From Anaerolineae bacterium (GTDB taxonomy: Bacteria > Chloroflexota > Anaerolineae > JAADDB01): a DNA stretch of 51,448 bases. The position numbers and the translations under genes were made by a program. The stretch spans positions 1-51,448 of the forward strand of contig WFWT01000040.1 of NCBI GenBank assembly GCA_015490995.1, read 5' to 3'. The notes beneath the pieces are model-generated. The model did not search any database. It had not been told where the DNA came from and was given only the letters and a program-made list of their open reading frames with translations. This document shows, in pieces, positions 1-7,401 of this stretch; the first letter of the stretch is position 1, and each line of letters opens with the position of its first letter.

Positions 1-49
1 CAATCTTCTGTTCAAAAAATCCTTTACTGCGAATCTGTATTGTGCTTGC

Positions 50-424
50 TTATAGAGGAATTTGCCAATAACACCATTCTTGTAAAGTCGATGGAATGAT
101 TCTGAGATGCCATGTGGTTGCCAAGCGCAGAACGATCAAACAAGTGGGGCATAAGAATATAGCAATTGGTAATTCTCGTGAATCAAATAGAGATAGAAAG
201 TTGCTGCTAAACTTCCCGTATGCTGTAGACAACAAAAAACCGCCACCGATCATTGCTATGCCATATACAGTGAAGGCAAATGCAATAACATTCCATATGT
301 TTTGATAAAATATTCTGAGAAAAAGTTCGCACAACGGATCATGGCGACAAAATGATGATGGTTGCACTTCTCTCAAAATGACTTTAAATGTAATTTGTTC
401 AAGCTTCTTGCTATCATCTTGCAT
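50..424 (-). CDS. Small hypothetical membrane protein
   Basis: This 124-residue protein is not recognised. Two hydrophobic stretches, at about residues 45-68 and 85-105, suggest two membrane helices, with a charged N-terminal region of about 40 residues probably in the cytoplasm. It contains several cysteines (residues 26, 32, 92, 95 and 118) but no motif I can name. No convincing Shine-Dalgarno sequence precedes the ATG. It lies about 120 bp downstream of the deaminase-membrane fusion gene on the same strand, so the two may be co-transcribed. Codon use is AT-rich, like the deaminase gene and unlike the rest of the window, which points to joint acquisition. It could also be a fragment of a longer gene. 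The function is unknown. Confidence 0.5.
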   Translation of the reverse strand: MQDDSKKLEQITFKVILREVQPSSFCRHDPLCELFLRIFYQNIWNVIAFAFTVYGIAMIGGGFLLSTAYGKFSSNFLSLFDSRELPIAIFLCPTCLIVLRLATTWHLRIIPSTLQEWCYWQIPL

Positions 425-541
425 TACTAAAGCCCGCCATGCCTAATGCTTGAAAGGAAGTTTATCCATCTCAAAGCGCTTCTTGCACACCTTGCTTGTA
501 CTCCATTAGAATAGAGCAAATGTGTACGATGGCGAGTAACA

Positions 542-1447
542 CTACCACCCAAGCACTAATTCAAGAAAAATGGCTGCTGAATAAGAAGCTAGCGAAACAA
601 TGAGAATATATACGCTTATGTAAAGCCATTTCGTTTTTCTATCTCTTATCTGTTGAATTATGTCTATCACAGATTGTGTTGAGTTAAGTTTCGCGGCAAT
701 CTGCCCTGCCCACTTAAAAGTAAGTATCCTTGTTATCACAACAATACATGCAACTAGCGCGAGAAACGTGGCCAGCCCTATGAGAACTCTTGATGCTGGA
801 TTAAGCATAGCGATCGATGAAAGTCCAGCTGCTGTTATTGCAACAAGTAATCCTGTCAAAGTGATGAGAGCATTAGCACTCTCTTCTATAGATACAGACT
901 GTCTGCCAAAGAGCTTGTAAACTTCTGCATATGGCCCAGTAAACACTCGAAGTGTCATCGCCTGTTCCCGTTTACGGACATCTGTTGGCGTGAAAGGCGT
1001 CTTCACCTTTCTCAGAGCGGCGGCTAATTCTAAAAGAGCTCTGCATTGGCTGTCATCCACGAACACAACGCGCGGTTTGTTAAGCGTCAAGTGACCATGT
1101 GTAATAGCTCCGTATACCGGGTCGGTTGCACCTGCTACAATAGTATCAATGCCCGCGAGCGTTGCAGCGCCGAGACACATTGTACAGGGCTCACAAGTTG
1201 TATACAATATACATCCTTGCAAGTCTCGTCCGAGCCGCGCCACTGCCGTGCGGATTGCCAACATCTCCGCATGTGCGGTTGGATCCCCGGTGGAATATGC
1301 ACGGTTGTGCTCAGACGTTATTAGCACACCATCCTTATAAACTGCGGCCCCATAAGGCGCATCGCCAATTTCAAGTGCTTTTCGTGCTGCATTGACAGCT
1401 TCTTCCAATCCATTAAGGTCCAAATTCGTGTTGGCATGCTCTAACAT
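542..1447 (-). CDS. Nucleoside/cytidine-type deaminase fused to a membrane domain
   Basis: Residues 10-155 form a cytidine/deoxycytidylate deaminase fold. The zinc-binding and catalytic motifs are complete: HAE at 59-61 (ligand H59, proton shuttle E61) and PCTMC at 87-91 (ligands C88 and C91). This variant is closest to the guanine deaminase and tRNA adenosine deaminase (TadA) branch. Residues 185-301 are unusual for that family: three hydrophobic segments at about 192-214, 221-241 and 274-299 separated by short charged loops. Most soluble deaminases of this branch are about 150-160 residues, so the second half is an added domain. The start is fixed by AAGGAG 8 bp upstream. The IS4-family element ends 17 bp before the ATG, so the native promoter has been displaced. 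Substrate is unknown; a role in nucleotide signalling or defence is speculation. Confidence 0.85.
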   Translation of the reverse strand: MLEHANTNLDLNGLEEAVNAARKALEIGDAPYGAAVYKDGVLITSEHNRAYSTGDPTAHAEMLAIRTAVARLGRDLQGCILYTTCEPCTMCLGAATLAGIDTIVAGATDPVYGAITHGHLTLNKPRVVFVDDSQCRALLELAAALRKVKTPFTPTDVRKREQAMTLRVFTGPYAEVYKLFGRQSVSIEESANALITLTGLLVAITAAGLSSIAMLNPASRVLIGLATFLALVACIVVITRILTFKWAGQIAAKLNSTQSVIDIIQQIRDRKTKWLYISVYILIVSLASYSAAIFLELVLGW

Positions 1448-1464
1448 TGACTTTCTCCTTGGAA

Positions 1465-1474
1465 CCGACAGTTT
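1465..1474. repeat. IS terminal inverted repeat, left
   Basis: CCGACAGTTT, identical to the reverse complement of 2649-2658. It lies immediately next to the transposase stop codon. Confidence 0.75.
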
Positions 1475-2554
1475 TCACTTGAAGTAGGGTAGCAAGCGGA
1501 TACGGACGGGATGGCCGAGGGTGAAGTGACGTTTCAGGCTGTCATACCCAATCCGAAACACGCTCAAGGTGTGACGATGCCGGCGGTCCACCAGATACCG
1601 TTGACCGCGCTTGATGACGTTTGTCCCAACCGCCACATGCCACACGTAGAGCAACGCCAGGGCCAGGAACAGGCGCACCAGCACCCGCCCATCCCGGATA
1701 TGGGTTTTGTCCAGGTGGAAGCCGTGGCTTTTCAAGTCCCGGTGCATTTCTTCCGTCCACATGCGACGGCGGTAGGCCCGCAACGCCTGGCGAGGCGTAG
1801 CCAAGGAGGTGGCGAGAAACCATGGCTTGTCCTCACCCGGTTCCCAATGCACCACCAGGCGACACGGATGGCGATGGGCAGCGGTCAACCGCACCTCCGG
1901 GTACCAGTGCGTTTGGCCCGGGGTGGCCATATGCTCCTCCAAGAACAGCCACCGGCGCCGGTCGACCAGGTAGACCCATATGCCGCTCCTTTGCCGCAAC
2001 ACGTAATCCCATCCCCAGGCCTCCAGTTGCCGAATCAAAGCCACGCTGCCGAATTCACTGTCGCCCACCACCAGCACGGGTGTGCCTTCCGGTATCCAAC
2101 GCCGCACCCGGGCCAGGAGGGCCCGCTGTTGGACACGGCTGCTATGCCCTTTCTTGTGACGCACCCAGGTCCAGGCCAGGGGCAAGGCCCGGCGGCGAAA
2201 GGCCAGGCTGACCACTATCACCTGAACGCGGGCATGAACAGATATGGTGTCCACCAGCAAGTGCACTTCGCCCTGGGCCGCAGCGGCCTGAGCCAGCAGT
2301 TGCCGGGCCACCGGCTCGTACCAGACCAGGGCCCGTACCGCTGCATTATGCAGAAAACGGCTCAAGCGACGTTCGATGCTGACCTTCTGAATGGGCCAGG
2401 GCAGGTGGACAGCCATGTGACTGAGGTGAATGCTTTTGGCCACCCACAAACCGGTCAGCAACCAGGCCATGTTGCGCACGCGAGTCAGGCGTTCCTGGGG
2501 CCAAAGTTGGCGCAGCCGCTGGAACCAGCTAGAATAGACTTGGTAGACCGGCAT
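1475..2554 (-). CDS. IS4-family DDE transposase
   Basis: This 359-residue protein cuts and rejoins the ends of the surrounding IS. The IS4 family signature is complete: first aspartate D102 (VDTIS), second aspartate D165 (GDSEFG), and a Y-(2)-R-(3)-E-(6)-K motif at Y261, R264, E268 and K275, which supplies the catalytic glutamate. A basic, tryptophan-rich N-terminal region of about 90 residues probably binds the inverted repeats. The reading frame is uninterrupted and the length is normal for small IS4 transposases, so the element may still be active. The ATG is preceded by a GGAG-containing stretch (complement of ctccctcctt at 2557-2566). The gene is GC-rich like the chromosome and unlike the AT-rich deaminase gene beside it. 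Confidence 0.9.
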   Translation of the reverse strand: MPVYQVYSSWFQRLRQLWPQERLTRVRNMAWLLTGLWVAKSIHLSHMAVHLPWPIQKVSIERRLSRFLHNAAVRALVWYEPVARQLLAQAAAAQGEVHLLVDTISVHARVQVIVVSLAFRRRALPLAWTWVRHKKGHSSRVQQRALLARVRRWIPEGTPVLVVGDSEFGSVALIRQLEAWGWDYVLRQRSGIWVYLVDRRRWLFLEEHMATPGQTHWYPEVRLTAAHRHPCRLVVHWEPGEDKPWFLATSLATPRQALRAYRRRMWTEEMHRDLKSHGFHLDKTHIRDGRVLVRLFLALALLYVWHVAVGTNVIKRGQRYLVDRRHRHTLSVFRIGYDSLKRHFTLGHPVRIRLLPYFK

Positions 2555-2600
2555 GGCTCCCTCCTTGAGGTGGTTGGTTTTCTCTCACCTGAATTCAACC

Positions 2601-2759
2601 TTAGGAGGGCCTGCCGGTCAACTGTTTTTGGCCTCCTCTCCCCTCCCCAAACTGTCGGGTAGTCAGAATAATGGTTAAAATTACTGCTGCAGCTTCGTCT
2701 TCTGGTCGTCTAACCCCGCCTATTTTGTTTCCGTGCTTGTCGTAGATATTGTAAGGCAT
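2601..2759 (-). pseudogene. Small gene truncated by the IS
   Basis: A 52-residue frame begins with a well-placed AGGAG 7 bp before its ATG and reads MPYNIYDKHGNKIGG near the start. The first 33 residues come from outside the IS. After position 2658 the frame runs into the IS end, so the last 19 residues (Arg, Gly and Gln rich) are IS-derived. The original protein is therefore probably truncated, and its true C-terminus is lost or lies elsewhere. The native part has a short polar segment followed by a hydrophobic run starting near residue 23 (AAAVILTIILT), which could be the start of a membrane helix. I do not recognise it. The dyad array at 2793-2893 lies directly upstream and could be its control region. 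Confidence 0.45.
2649..2658. repeat. IS terminal inverted repeat, right
   Basis: AAACTGTCGG, the exact reverse complement of the left repeat at 1465-1474. Confidence 0.75.
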
Positions 2760-2792
2760 ATTTGTTCTCCTTTCTGGCTGAAGTGCATCACC

Positions 2793-2893
2793 CGTTATCC
2801 GACATATTTGGCGGATATACACCCTATCCCGGGGATTATCCGGTAGATCTGCCGGATAAGGATGTGTATATCCAGCAAAACTGTCGGATATAC
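2793..2893. repeat. Three tandem 28-bp dyads with 6-bp spacers
   Basis: Three imperfect dyads sit at 2793-2820, 2834-2861 and 2866-2893. Each has two inverted 11-bp arms around a 6-bp centre (ATATTT, AGATCT and AAAACT). The arms share the consensus GTWTATCCGRC, best kept over the 8 bp TATCCGRC next to the spacer. A fourth, decayed copy may lie at 2909-2930, with only its left arm well preserved. Arms of 11 bp with a 6-8 bp spacer are the layout of core sites cut by Xer-type tyrosine recombinases, and such a recombinase gene begins 389 bp away. Multiple operators for a repressor are the main alternative. Confidence 0.7.
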
Positions 2894-2930
2894 TCCCACA
2901 TAGAGCGATATCCGGCCACATTACTGGAGG

Positions 2931-3177
2931 TGATAGGCTCAATCTGTACATGCAATAACATGGGTGCAAAAACAGTACAAGCACGCACCATACCCGTCCA
3001 GGAAACTTGACACCGGGAACACAGCGAGGTACACTTGGAGGTACAATCGAATCTGAGTTTTGCTCCACAGGGGCTGGCGTGTCCGTCGCTGGCCCCGTTT
3101 TATTTTTCCCCAATGATAATCGAAAAGCCTTGCCCCGTCAAATTTTTACTCACCTCACATATCCCGGTCCGGTTGTG
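2931..3177. other. Intergenic stretch, nothing recognised
   Basis: No supported gene, RNA or strong repeat is seen between the dyad array and the recombinase promoter. Frames that cross it on both strands lack ribosome binding sites and recognisable sequence. Confidence 0.5.
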
Positions 3178-3208
3178 TTGTGCTTCCATAAATCCCCGCG
3201 CGTATAAT
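3178..3208 (+). promoter_or_regulatory. Candidate promoter of the recombinase gene
   Basis: A perfect -10 box (TATAAT, 3203-3208) is preceded by a weaker -35 (TTGTGC, 3178-3183) at a long 19-bp spacing. It would give a leader of about 65 nt before the ATG at 3282. Confidence 0.45.
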
Positions 3209-3281
3209 CTTCCCCGGTCCCCTGCTCTGCCATGAGCCGGCGGTCCCGCCTGAGCATCATCCCCGGGCAAGGAGGATTGTA

Positions 3282-4226
3282 ATGATGTCAGGACGACTCA
3301 CACCGCCCACACTGGTATCCGCCATAGAGCAGTTCCTGCAAGCAAAAGAAGCCGCCTTCCGTTCTAAGGCCACCATTGCCAAATACAGCGACATCCTCCA
3401 AAGATTCGCCCGATATGTGGGCGAGGAGACGCCGCTGGCAGCGATTCAGACCCGGATGATCCGCGACTTCCTTGCCTCCAGGAGGCGAGAGGGATTGAGC
3501 GCCTCCTCGATAGACACCTACTTCCGCACGTTGCACACTTTCTGGAAATGGGCAACGGAGGAATACGCCCTAGGCAACAATCCCATGCAGGGTGTAGATA
3601 GGCCTCACGTGCCAAAGAGATTGCCCCCATATCTCACGGATAGCGAATGTCAGCGAATGCTTCAGGCCGCAAAACAGTCTCGCTCCGGGTTGCGAGACTG
3701 GGCCATTCTCCTCACGTTGTTCGACACCGGCATTCGGGCGGGAGAGCTGGTAGGGCTTCGGGTTAAAAACGTCAATTTCGAGATGGGAACAATAACGGTG
3801 TACGGCAAGGATGCGGAGGAGCGCTGCATACCCATCAGCGAGGCCACCGTCAAGGCTCTGAGAGCATACCTCAAGGACCGCCTTCATGATCCTGAGGCGC
3901 CGGTTTTCGTCAGTACAAAGACCGGAGAGGCGCTCACCGTGTGCGGGCTCCGGGAGATCATCCGACGGATAGCCAGAGCAGCAGGCCTGCAGCGGCGGGT
4001 GTATCCCCATCTTTTCCGGCACACTTTTGCGTACCGCTGGATCAAAATGGGCGGAAACGTGGAAAAGCTGCGATATATTCTGGGGCACTCCCGTCTGGAT
4101 ACCACCCACATCTACGCGATGGCGCGCCCTGAGGACATTCTGGAGGAACACCGGAGGCTTAATCCGGCTGGAAATCTTGTGGAAAGGGTGAAGGTTCTTC
4201 CCCTCTTAAGCGGGGAGGTAAGGTGA
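3282..4226 (+). CDS. Tyrosine recombinase (XerC/D-like integrase)
   Basis: This 314-residue enzyme is expected to integrate and excise the element. Residues 10-100 form the SAM-like N-terminal DNA-binding domain and residues 115-290 the catalytic domain. All six active-site positions are visible: R152 (TGIRAGE), K176, H243 and R246 (HLFRH), H269 (LGHS), and the nucleophile Y278 (THIYAM). AAGGAGG precedes the tandem ATG-ATG start. The stop lies 17 bp before the displaced 3' half of tRNA-Val, the classic place for an integrase gene next to its attachment site. Length and motifs resemble XerC/XerD and single-gene integrases of small islands. The chromosomal Xer function is not excluded, but the attachment-site context favours an element integrase. 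Confidence 0.93.
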   Translation: MMSGRLTPPTLVSAIEQFLQAKEAAFRSKATIAKYSDILQRFARYVGEETPLAAIQTRMIRDFLASRRREGLSASSIDTYFRTLHTFWKWATEEYALGNNPMQGVDRPHVPKRLPPYLTDSECQRMLQAAKQSRSGLRDWAILLTLFDTGIRAGELVGLRVKNVNFEMGTITVYGKDAEERCIPISEATVKALRAYLKDRLHDPEAPVFVSTKTGEALTVCGLREIIRRIARAAGLQRRVYPHLFRHTFAYRWIKMGGNVEKLRYILGHSRLDTTHIYAMARPEDILEEHRRLNPAGNLVERVKVLPLLSGEVR

Positions 4227-4243
4227 GGAATCCGATCTGTGTT

Positions 4244-4293
4244 CTTCCCTTACAAGGAGGAGGGCACAGGTTCGAGTCCTGTTCCGCCCACCA
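4244..4293 (+). pseudogene. 3' half of tRNA-Val(TAC), attachment-site scar
   Basis: Bases 4244-4260 fold as an anticodon arm with loop CTTACAA (anticodon TAC at 4251-4253). A 5-nt variable loop, a T arm (ACAGG stem, loop TTCGAGT) and the acceptor 3' strand TCCGCCC follow, then discriminator A and an encoded CCA ending at 4293. The 5' half (GGGCGGA strand and D arm) is absent; the recombinase coding sequence lies there instead. This is what integration into the tRNA 3' end leaves at the far side of an element. Confidence 0.85.
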
Positions 4294-4296
4294 TGT

Positions 4297-4328
4297 CCGT
4301 GTCCTGGTCCGGCCGGGCCAGGACACGG
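4297..4328 (+). terminator. Hairpin terminator, originally of tRNA-Val
   Basis: A perfect 11-bp stem (CCGTGTCCTGG, 4297-4307, with its complement at 4318-4328) starts 3 bp after the tRNA CCA. Only a short T-containing tail follows, so termination may be partial. It marks the original downstream side of the tRNA gene. Confidence 0.65.
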
Positions 4329-4390
4329 CTTTGCCCCACTACATCCCCTTTGTCTAAGCGCTGCGCCGCTTCCAGATTTCCGAAGAAGCC

Positions 4391-4669
4391 TTGAAAGAGG
4401 CCATCTCCTTTGGCAGAATAAGAACGACAACCATTGGTGAGGAGGTGGCGGTAGCGGAACAGGATGTGCGCGAACTGGCGAAAGGCCAGGAAGTGATGGT
4501 TGTCCGACGAGAGACTTTTAAGCATCTGCTCGTGGCGCGATGCAAGCACGTCGTGGTGTTCGCGAAAGGGGCGGCAGTGGCCAACGTCGTGACCATGAAT
4601 TTCATTGTCGCCAATCTCACGCCCAAGCGGTGGCACGAATGGTATAAAAAGTGTGGGAGCCTTTGGTGA
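4391..4669 (+). CDS. Doubtful hypothetical ORF
   Basis: A 92-residue frame that would start at TTG (4391). Just upstream the frame continues as FQISEEALKEA with CTG as another possible start. No Shine-Dalgarno sequence is visible. The product has an even mix of charged and hydrophobic residues and a hydrophobic VVVFAKGAAV segment, which looks protein-like, but I recognise no family. It lies just past the attachment scar, where gene remnants are common. It may be a decayed gene. The overlapping minus-strand frames are less convincing because one of them runs through the tRNA fragment. Confidence 0.25.
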   Translation: MKEAISFGRIRTTTIGEEVAVAEQDVRELAKGQEVMVVRRETFKHLLVARCKHVVVFAKGAAVANVVTMNFIVANLTPKRWHEWYKKCGSLW

Positions 4670-4723
4670 GCCATGGTCTCGCTCCGGGCGTAATTATGCT
4701 TTCTGTCCGCCAGCCTGCCACAT

Positions 4724-4752
4724 TTGACGAAAGCCAGGATTCGCATTAACAT
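4724..4752 (+). promoter_or_regulatory. Promoter of the SRP RNA gene
   Basis: TTGACG (4724-4729), 17-bp spacer, TAACAT (4747-4752). The predicted start, 7 bp downstream at 4759, falls exactly on the first paired base of the SRP RNA. Confidence 0.7.
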
Positions 4753-4758
4753 GAAATC

Positions 4759-5025
4759 GGCCGTGCTAGGCGGGGAGCTGGCGGTGCCCTGTACCCGCAA
4801 TCCGCCATAGCGGGGCCGAATTCCCCCCTGAGGGGCCGCCTTGACGATACTGCCCGGCTAAGCGGCGTTGAAGGCTGGGTCCCGCGCGGCGGGCACCCAC
4901 GAACCGGGTCAGGTCCGGAAGGAAGCAGCCCTAAGTGGTGCTGCCCGGGCGACGCGGGGGTGCCTGGCCTGAGCTGGCTGGCCGGGTAAGGCGTGGAGGC
5001 GGACTTCGACGGGGGGTGCACGGCC
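4759..5025 (+). ncRNA. ffs: Signal recognition particle RNA, large bacterial type
   Basis: The RNA core of the signal recognition particle, which with Ffh brings membrane and secreted proteins to the translocon. The conserved Ffh-binding domain is clear (GGTCAGGTCCGGAAGGAAGC around 4907-4926). The 5' part carries the Alu-domain sequence of the large Bacillus-type RNA (GTGCTAGGCGGGGAG followed by GGTGCCCTGTA). The ends pair (GGCCGTG at 4759 with CACGGCC ending at 5025), giving 267 nt, close to the roughly 270-nt large form. A promoter and a strong terminator flank it exactly. Frames of 80-150 codons that cross it are artefacts. Confidence 0.95.
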
Positions 5026-5026
5026 A

Positions 5027-5068
5027 CAGAGAGAGGCGCCGGTTAATCCGGCGCCTCTCTCTGTTTCG
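5027..5068 (+). terminator. Terminator of ffs
   Basis: A perfect 16-bp stem (5027-5042 with 5048-5063, loop TTAAT), then a short T stretch. It starts 1 bp after the SRP RNA. It may also stop transcripts of the convergent lgt-like gene. Confidence 0.9.
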
Positions 5069-5101
5069 ATAACTGGCAGACCGAACGTCCAGGGCACTTG
5101 C

Positions 5102-5860
5102 TCAACTCTCGACGGGCCGTTCTCCTTCCTCAACAAGTGCGGCTGGCGGGGCCGACCGGGCCAGTCCCCACAGCGCAATCAACGCTCCCACCAGCGCTAT
5201 CAGCTGGGCCCCGCGCCATCCTCCCGGCAGCAACCAGCTGTCCCCCCGCCAGGCTTCCAGAACCAACCGAGAAAAGCTGTACGCAAAAAGCAGTCGCCAC
5301 CCCCCAAGCCCTTTGCCCCAAGGCGCCGGCCGACGCCACAACCAGACAAACGTGAGCAGGGCGGCCACCATCTCGTACAATTGCACCGGATGCCGTCGGG
5401 CGCCCCACAGTTCGATTCCCCAAGGTAGGTTGGTCACCGTGCCGTAAGCATCCCCGGCCAAGAAGTTGGCCAGCGCGTATACAGCCCACCCCAAAGCCAA
5501 CGCAGGGGCCAGCGCATCCGCCAAGAGAGCTAATCGTACCCGATGACGCCGCAAATAGATCAGCCCAAGGAGCATCCCTCCTATCACAGCCACCTCGGGG
5601 ATAAATGTGCTCAACCGCGGGGTCAGCAGTGACAGCGGGGATGCCAGGTAAGCTTGTGGGTAACGGGCCGCGTAGGCCAATCGGCCAAGGATGAGCCCAC
5701 CCAACACGCTTAACAACCCCCAATTCCACACCACATCCTCTGAGATGCCCCGTTCGGCAGCACGGCGACTTCCCAGCCAGAGGACCAGATACAAGTTAGC
5801 CAGCAAGAGCAAAGGTTTGGTCGGTAACGCCAACGTACCGATGGTGATGGCCGGGTACAT
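5102..5860 (-). CDS. Lgt-like prolipoprotein diacylglyceryl transferase family protein
   Basis: A 252-residue membrane protein with about seven hydrophobic segments. Lgt moves diacylglycerol from phosphatidylglycerol to the lipobox cysteine of prelipoproteins. The family signature RHPVQLYE (residues 156-163) is present, as are GRLAY (59-63) and ANFLAGDAYG (131-140), which corresponds to the conserved GNFINGE region. However, the essential histidine of the HGG motif is not seen: residues 86-95 read FIPEVAVIGG. The Arg of the NGE..GR segment is also missing. It may therefore be a divergent Lgt or a paralogue with another substrate. The start is 1 bp from the stop of the thioredoxin-like gene, so the two are translationally linked. 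Confidence 0.75.
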   Translation of the reverse strand: MYPAITIGTLALPTKPLLLLANLYLVLWLGSRRAAERGISEDVVWNWGLLSVLGGLILGRLAYAARYPQAYLASPLSLLTPRLSTFIPEVAVIGGMLLGLIYLRRHRVRLALLADALAPALALGWAVYALANFLAGDAYGTVTNLPWGIELWGARRHPVQLYEMVAALLTFVWLWRRPAPWGKGLGGWRLLFAYSFSRLVLEAWRGDSWLLPGGWRGAQLIALVGALIALWGLARSAPPAALVEEGERPVES

Positions 5861-5861
5861 G

Positions 5862-6443
5862 TTAACGCGCCTCCATCAACCGTTGAATGCGGGCGTAGAT
5901 GGCCCCTTCTGACATTCCACCTTCCACCCGTTCAATAATGGTGCCGTCCGGCGCAATAAAGTAGGTGGTGGGCAAAAAGCGCACCCGGTATTGTTCCCCT
6001 ACCTCCATACGGGTATCCAACACAATGGGAAATGTCAACCCCAACTCGTTACGGAACGCCGCCACCACCGTAGGATCTTCAGCCTCGTTTACCGCCACGA
6101 TAATGAGCCCCTGATCGCGATACCGTTGATATGCCTTTTCAAAGGCGGGCATTTCAGCCCGGCAGGGGGGACACCACGTGGCCCAAAAGTTCAACACAAC
6201 CCGTTGACCGCGCAAGGCGCTGAGACGCAACGTGTCCCCCTCGAGGGTGAGGAGAGTGAAATCCGGGGCCAGAAAACCGGGGCGCGGCGCGGCCATCTCC
6301 CGGGTGCCCGTACCTTCCGGCGCTCGTGAAAGGACCACCCACATGATCCCCACCAACAAAACAAAAATCATCACCATGTAATAGCGCTCCCGGGGCCACA
6401 CCACACCGGGACGTTGCGTCATCTCCGTCGATGTTGAGGTCAT
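5862..6443 (-). CDS. TlpA/ResA-type membrane-anchored thioredoxin
   Basis: A 193-residue protein with one N-terminal membrane helix (about residues 22-38) and an extracytoplasmic thioredoxin fold. The active site is WCPPC at residues 90-94 (C91 and C94), and the cis-proline loop is FLPTTYF. Proteins of this kind reduce disulfides outside the cytoplasm, typically for cytochrome c maturation, or act as alkyl hydroperoxide/TSA-like thiol enzymes. The start is set by AAGGAGG 7 bp before the ATG. An out-of-frame ATG 4 bp earlier was rejected. The Lgt-like gene follows directly. No cytochrome c maturation gene is next to it, so the client proteins are unknown. Confidence 0.9.
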   Translation of the reverse strand: MTSTSTEMTQRPGVVWPRERYYMVMIFVLLVGIMWVVLSRAPEGTGTREMAAPRPGFLAPDFTLLTLEGDTLRLSALRGQRVVLNFWATWCPPCRAEMPAFEKAYQRYRDQGLIIVAVNEAEDPTVVAAFRNELGLTFPIVLDTRMEVGEQYRVRFLPTTYFIAPDGTIIERVEGGMSEGAIYARIQRLMEAR

Positions 6444-6609: not shown

Positions 6610-7401
6610 TTACATCACCCCGCGGATCATCCCACCGTCCACCTGTAGCAGGGCTCCGTTGACAAAGCTCGCCCGCTCCGAGGCCAAGAAAGCTACCACA
6701 GCCCCGAACTCTTCAGGACGCCCTAGACGGCCGAGAGGAATTTGACTTACCCAAGCACGCTGTGCCTCTTCCATGGTGATACCCTGAGTTTCCACAGCCC
6801 GCTGCAACAAACTCTGAAGCCGTTCGGTGAGAATAGGGCCGGGACACACCGCATTGACGGTAATATTGTGAGGACCCAATTCCTGGGCCAAGGTCTTGAC
6901 CAGACCGTGCACACCAGCTCGCACCGCGTTGGAAAGGATCAAGTTAGGCAATACTTGTTTGGCAGAAACAGAGGTGATGGTAATAATGCGGCCACTGCCC
7001 GCTTGTTTCAAGTGGGGAAGGGCCGCGTAGATAAGCCGTACTGTGCTCAGAAAGTTCAGGTTCCAGGCCTGCAACCACGCTTCCTCGTCAAAATCTTCAA
7101 ACGTACCGGAAGGCGGTCCCCCTGCGTTGGTGACCAAAATGTCCAAACGCCCCCACCGGTCTACCGCGGCCTGAACAAAGCGACGCGCGTCCTCCGCTCG
7201 GGTCACGTCCGCGACGAGAGGCAAAACTTCACCTCCAGTCTCGCGGGCGATCTCCTCCGCAGCTTGCTGAAGCCGACCCTCATGGCGGGCGCAAATGGCA
7301 ACCCGCGCGCCTTCGCGGGCCAGTTCTAGGGCAGATGCCTTGCCCAGGCCGCTACTGGCCGCGGCCACACACGCCACCTTCCCCCGTAATCCAAGGTCCA
7401 T
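6610..7401 (-). CDS. Atypical short-chain dehydrogenase/reductase
   Basis: A 263-residue SDR with a Rossmann fold (glycine motif AAASSGLG at 13-20, NAG at 92-94, catalytic-region serine S144). It resembles the FabG-like branch that carries LSNxxRAG in place of the usual YxxxK. Here residues 154-165 read LILSNAVRAGVH, so the catalytic Tyr and Lys are absent. Classical carbonyl reduction is therefore doubtful, although the branch is widespread and annotated as 3-oxoacyl reductase. The start chosen is ATG 7401 with GAGGAGG 5 bp upstream; a longer frame to 7668 lacks a ribosome binding site and overlaps the divergent gene. An extended -10 promoter lies at 7455-7463. Confidence 0.88.
   Translation of the reverse strand: MDLGLRGKVACVAAASSGLGKASALELAREGARVAICARHEGRLQQAAEEIARETGGEVLPLVADVTRAEDARRFVQAAVDRWGRLDILVTNAGGPPSGTFEDFDEEAWLQAWNLNFLSTVRLIYAALPHLKQAGSGRIITITSVSAKQVLPNLILSNAVRAGVHGLVKTLAQELGPHNITVNAVCPGPILTERLQSLLQRAVETQGITMEEAQRAWVSQIPLGRLGRPEEFGAVVAFLASERASFVNGALLQVDGGMIRGVM

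Follow-up and report, generated by a model that had tools for sequence, protein, structure and literature searches.

A tandem dyad array beside a Xer-like integrase in an Anaerolineae bacterium: a probable orphan of the integron attI type

The stretch of DNA analyzed here (the window) comprises 51,448 nucleotides of contig WFWT01000040.1 from an Anaerolineae bacterium (assembly GCA_015490995.1), and contains an array of short tandem dyads placed between a small interrupted gene and a gene for a tyrosine recombinase that is followed by a tRNA scar (Table 1). As the initial annotation had recognized, the small gene, a minus-strand ORF that starts at ~2760, is cut by an insertion sequence; no target-site duplication is visible around this IS4-family element. 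One end of the element, AAACTGTCGG, is similar to one half of dyad 3 (AAACTGTCGGATA), a likeness that is probably fortuitous. Genes on the left side of the array are oriented away from it, as cassettes would be; among them, positions 542-1447 encode a deaminase-like domain (PF00383) joined to a C-terminal part of membrane type. On the other side, a sequence at ~4840-5000 (GGTCAGGTCCGGAAGGAAGCAGC) resembles bacterial SRP RNA by eye.

Table 1. Coordinates of the features in and around the dyad array (positions of the window).
Feature	Position	Strand	Remarks
IS4-family element	1464..2658	-	terminal repeats CCGACAGTTT/AAACTGTCGG (10 bp); NF033591 173.9 bits, cut-off 152
Small ORF (MPYNIYDKHGNKIGG...)	2605..2762	-	points away from the array, a cassette-like orientation; cut by the IS
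Dyad 1, TATCCGACATATTTGGCGGATA	2796..2817	n/a	outermost dyad, facing the missing attI core; kept in L073, L064 and L066
Dyad 2, TATCCGGTAGATCTGCCGGATA	2837..2858		half-sites covary with those of related arrays
Dyad 3, TATCCAGCAAAACTGTCGGATA	2869..2890		match to TATCC-N12-GGATA
Decayed fourth dyad	2906..2933		5/11 arm matches; aligns with the dyad over the intI promoter (TTGACA-N17-TATACT) in same-genus integron L064/L194
Promoter-like TTGACA-N17-TACACT (3007-3035), then terminator-like hairpin (3070-3096) and T tract	3007..3106	+	
Xer-like tyrosine recombinase, 314 aa	3282..4226	+	not IntI
tRNA 3'-end scar (attR-like)	4253..4293	+	directly after the integrase; RF00005 25.1 bits, below the gathering threshold of 29

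The dyads stand far above chance, as the 22-bp pattern TATCC-N12-GGATA has three matches in the window and 0.00 expected from 100 shuffles. These matches follow one another at steps of 41 and then 32 bp, and in the repeat listing they form one direct-repeat family whose members are also inverted repeats. The three dyads proposed by the initial annotation are thus real, but the strict 28-bp geometry it gave them (11-bp arms around a 6-bp spacer) holds only in part, since the arms of dyads 1, 2 and 3 match at 7/11, 8/11 and 9/11 positions. In addition, the palindrome of dyad 2 runs through its ‘spacer’ (AGATCT), so the 11-6-11 division is one possible partition and not a strict fact. Two further details of that annotation were confirmed, namely a decayed fourth dyad and a distance of 389 bp between position 2893, where the third 28-bp dyad ends, and the ATG of the integrase gene at 3282. 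The array is a single copy in the genome assembly, where the remaining matches to the pattern are isolated singles, one of which (TTATCCACA) resembles a DnaA box by eye, and a search of Rfam with the array gave no credible match.

The adjacent recombinase matches Pfam PF00589 and scores 207.2 bits against the XerA model (cut-off 220) and 78.9 bits against the integron-integrase model TIGR02249 (cut-off 265); the IntI-specific domain was not found in it. It has no close homologues in the genome and viral collections, its closest homologue across the class is 44% identical and without dyads, and dyads are absent from all examined homologous loci in related genomes. The promoter-like sequence upstream of this gene is close to consensus and is followed ~35 bp on by the terminator hairpin, an arrangement that could produce a short RNA or an attenuator before the integrase. 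Another locus (L096, G000:C142, positions 555-1380) carries a second integrase N-terminus, whose promoter region is 81% identical to that of the window integrase and which runs into IS110-type transposase sequence.

Relatives of the array were sought by scanning 84,980 genomes for two tandem dyads, which yielded 56 stretches. The majority are unrelated repeats, but a subset shares both the sequence and the spacing of 41 bp or 41 and 32 bp, and consists of three loci (L064, L066 and L073) in one Anaerolineae MAG, M17, four loci in WOR-3, one in Stahlbacteria and two in a single Thermoplasmata archaeon. M17 (G001) belongs to the same genus as the window and carries the 41- plus 32-bp array at all three loci; among 396 Anaerolineae genomes, exact arrays occur only in M17 and in the genome of the window. 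The relatives are mostly MAGs with short contigs. Most of the other tandem matches, including the Anaerolineae ones outside the genus, were set aside as unrelated repeats or DnaA-box-like regions (such as TTATCCACA), as were the pattern matches in viral contigs, which are unrelated sequences; a search of plasmids and phages for the array found nothing.

The three M17 arrays are, in ungapped alignment, 94% (L073), 77% (L064) and 75% (L066) identical to that of the window, and their surroundings tie them to integrons. At L064 (also L116), the array lies upstream of a bona fide IntI (L116 7036-8031; TIGR02249 467.6 bits, cut-off 265), with a promoter (TTGACA-N17-TATACT) between dyad 3 and intI, while its opposite side carries GTTGGGC and then a divergent MntA/HepT-like pair. 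At L066 (L117/L179), GTTAGCC comes after the array, and then plus-strand ORFs with attC-like sites (L179 positions 1651-1722, 4203-4277, 5924-6053 and 7006-7132). The first of these sites starts with GGCTAAC, which is complementary to the insertion core, as expected of a captured cassette. A strict attC scan missed real sites because the R' and R'' boxes of integrated cassettes are hybrid, and these were recovered by a relaxed scan and direct inspection. The integrase at the third locus, L073, is only 31% identical to that of the window.

This last locus has the layout of the window, with array, Xer-like integrase and tRNA 3' end in the same order, but its GTTAGGC core is intact. When the two are aligned, the array, promoter, terminator and integrase promoter are conserved, with 93% and 88% identity at the two ends of the leader (3007-3106 in the window) and 58% in its middle, whereas the intervening stretches and the integrase are not. 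This block pattern shows that array and leader travel together while the integrase gene differs. On the outer side of dyad 1 the resemblance of the window to L073 ends (identity is 94% inside this edge and 38% outside), and for this reason the GTTRRRY core that stands beside dyad 1 at L073, L064 and L066 is missing from the window. A GTTAGAC on the same side lies within the small ORF, out of context, and a cassette inserted at the GTT of dyad 1 was considered and dropped because its orientation is wrong for attI. The relaxed scan found no attC in positions 1-6000 of the window. At L115 (1760-1895), two tRNA 3'-end fragments stand in tandem behind the Xer-like integrase, which suggests that a single tRNA site was used for integration more than once.

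IntI homologues are present in 99 of the 396 Anaerolineae genomes, and the region upstream of their genes contains the same family of half-sites. In 28 such regions the half-site TTAKVCRG was observed 39 times (3.08 expected), compared to three times (1.25 expected) in 17 control regions of Xer-like recombinases. As this pattern had been picked after viewing these first 28 regions, 39 further Anaerolineae regions were fetched and tested unseen; they contained 65 sites where 4.28 were expected, 19 of them had at least two sites (0.22 expected), and the reversed pattern occurred three times (2.09 expected). In many cases the first half-site directly abuts the core at which insertion occurs (GCCTAACTATTGATTATACGG). 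When tandem matching dyads were tested for without a motif, the outcome was weaker and only modestly positive (10/27 IntI upstream regions vs 3/16 controls), so the exact layout varies among IntI loci. Across 31 dyads from 15 loci, the match between the two half-sites of a dyad exceeded that of all permutations (0/5000), and in the four Anaerolineae arrays 35 of 42 positions are invariant in the outer arms, vs 16 of 29 between dyads.

In WOR-3, Stahlbacteria and Thermoplasmata the array has a two-dyad version with 41-bp spacing, placed between a GTTRNNC core and the 3' end of a gene for a XerA-like integrase. It begins ~30-60 bp past the end of the gene and terminates in ...AAACRAGTTRNNC; the letters of the dyads differ between copies, but both dyads of one copy vary together. 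One of these loci (L180) contains a cassette between GTTAGCC and an attC that opens with GGCTAAC and closes with GTTATACGC, which is the sequence of empty sites such as L069, and the same logic applies to a cassette inserted at L227, with GTTATACGC and GCGTATAAC. Cassettes with attC sites on the far side of the array are seen at L179 and, judging from the complementarity between core and R'', also at L180 and L227. The IntI-specific domain was not found in the XerA-like integrases at the two-dyad loci, several of which are truncated to the C-terminus. At L180 (G398:C120), L181 (G401:C9) and L226-L228, a two-dyad attI-like site comes immediately after an integrase of this kind.

Considering the identity of the window array to those of L073, L064 and L066 together with the class-wide enrichment of half-sites, we regard it as likely that the array represents the integrase-proximal (accessory and promoter) part of an integron attI/Pint region. 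Intact relatives have a common order of insertion core, dyad 1, a 41-bp step, dyad 2 (plus a 32-bp step and dyad 3, where present), and finally the integrase, either as the intI promoter with intI behind it or as a XerA-like integrase gene met at its 3' end. In the array, TTATCCGR half-sites would thus form inverted pairs set in tandem, each suited in shape to two tyrosine-recombinase monomers and positioned between the integrase gene and the G^TTRRRY point of cassette insertion. The dyads are probably bound by the integron integrase, and such binding by a cognate enzyme could help to assemble and orient the attI x attC synapse, as DR1 and DR2 do in attI1. Since one dyad overlaps the intI promoter, IntI may also repress its own gene through this site. 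The suggestion of an integron-like exchange site, one of several in the initial annotation, was right in kind: the array adjoins a true IntI and precedes a cassette array within the genus, and its half-site family occurs at IntI genes throughout the class.

The copy in the window is best called an orphan attI-type array and not a working attI, since the genome has no IntI above the cut-off (the best score in the assembly is 82.8 bits, cut-off 265), the GTTRRRY core is gone and the neighboring integrase is not IntI; at same-genus L116, by comparison, an IntI adjoins the array. It would be a relic in which the intI promoter and its dyad have decayed, and in which a Xer-like, tRNA-targeting integrase with its own promoter stands in place of intI. 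We also consider, as a speculation that we rate as doubtful, that this dyad-array attI is an old kind found across the class and common to true IntI and to XerA-like recombinases lacking the IntI-specific domain (in WOR-3 and relatives), so that capture would work without this domain, and that such an attI is carried by tRNA-targeted elements, that of the window among them, as a landing platform for an IntI encoded elsewhere and acting in trans.

An unlikely alternative, though the foremost of those we considered, is that the dyads are operators of a dedicated repressor that controls the integrase and cassette promoters, unbound by the integrase. A dyad overlapping a sigma-70-like promoter directed into intI (TTGACAGGGAGTATATCCTGCATTATACT; TTGCATTAGACGGCTTATATCCGTATAAT), as found at several IntI loci including L064/L194, would fit this explanation. 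Against it, the arrays of WOR-3, Stahlbacteria and Thermoplasmata adjoin the insertion core past the 3' end of the integrase gene, away from its promoter, and the genome of the window contains no other array of the motif. Because the motif differs between integrons of one class while the dyads of one site share the same variant, a host regulon is also unlikely. An operator serving the small gene alone, which the initial annotation had entertained, is not supported, as the ORF occurs in one of 396 Anaerolineae genomes, its own, with no homologue in the other 395, and the dyads are accordingly not conserved upstream of a gene family of this type. It is possible that the dyads have a dual role in which they also serve as an operator of the intI promoter.

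It is quite improbable that the dyads are core or accessory (arm-type) sites used by the adjacent Xer-like tRNA integrase for integration or excision. Their 11-6-11-like geometry would suit such a function, and the block of array, leader, Xer-like integrase and tRNA 3' end does recur at L073, yet arrays that are 94% identical beside integrases that share 31% identity are the opposite of what co-evolution would produce. Neither the closest homologue of the recombinase nor the others examined are accompanied by dyads, so the array neither co-occurs nor covaries with the enzyme beside it, and the same dyads accompany an unrelated IntI. Moreover, the element attaches at the tRNA 3' end, which lies across the gene from the array, and the proposal that the dyads are core sites of this recombinase consequently finds no support. 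Least probable is a single-stranded attC-like hairpin (a cassette recombination site). In its favor, the 107-nt strand is much better folded than shuffled sequences (z ~ -6, both strands), has a length within the attC range and has outer arms that recall R'' (ATCCGAC) and R' (GTCGGAT), but tandem palindromic dyads fold in this way by construction, these arms lack the AAC and GTT triplets of attC ends (RYYYAAC ... GTTRRRY), and relatives have a GTTRRRY core outside the array and separate, true attC sites.

Sites of the attI type have been described as less conserved than attC and harder to predict (PMC3607928), so few have been recognized outside a handful of model integrons. A rule of inverted TTATNCGG half-sites beside AACTA...TTA cores makes attI findable in Anaerolineae, separates attI from promoter and integrase, and exposes orphan platforms like that of the window. 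The same arrays also direct attention to integron-like systems that have an integrase without the domain considered a requirement for integron recombination.

Several known systems share features with the array. Putative attI sites of archaeal integrons are reported to lie immediately downstream of intI and to be semi-conserved across phyla (Ghaly et al. 2022, PMC9668308), and the Thermoplasmata and WOR-3 arrays also lie 3' of the integrase gene; the main text of that study, as far as consulted, makes no mention of dyads, and the IntI-specific domain was required there, whereas the WOR-3 integrases described here are without it. Like dif and other XerC-XerD core sites, the dyads are ~28 bp long with inverted arms and a center of ~6 bp, but they are tandem, variable in the center and tied to integron cores and IntI genes, whereas dif sites are single sites of chromosomal resolution. 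Finally, attI is thought to co-evolve with its cognate IntI, and accessory direct repeats are present in attI1 and absent from attIA of Vibrio cholerae (PMC8946536). The attI1 site of class 1 integrons, in which IntI1 binds L and R at the core as well as DR1 and DR2, resembles the arrays in having a G^TTRRRY core beside the integrase gene and extra integrase-binding sites on the integrase side, with binding predicted for the dyads; it differs in that these extra sites are direct repeats in attI1, while here TTATNCGG half-sites form two or three inverted dyads at fixed steps of 41 and 32 bp.
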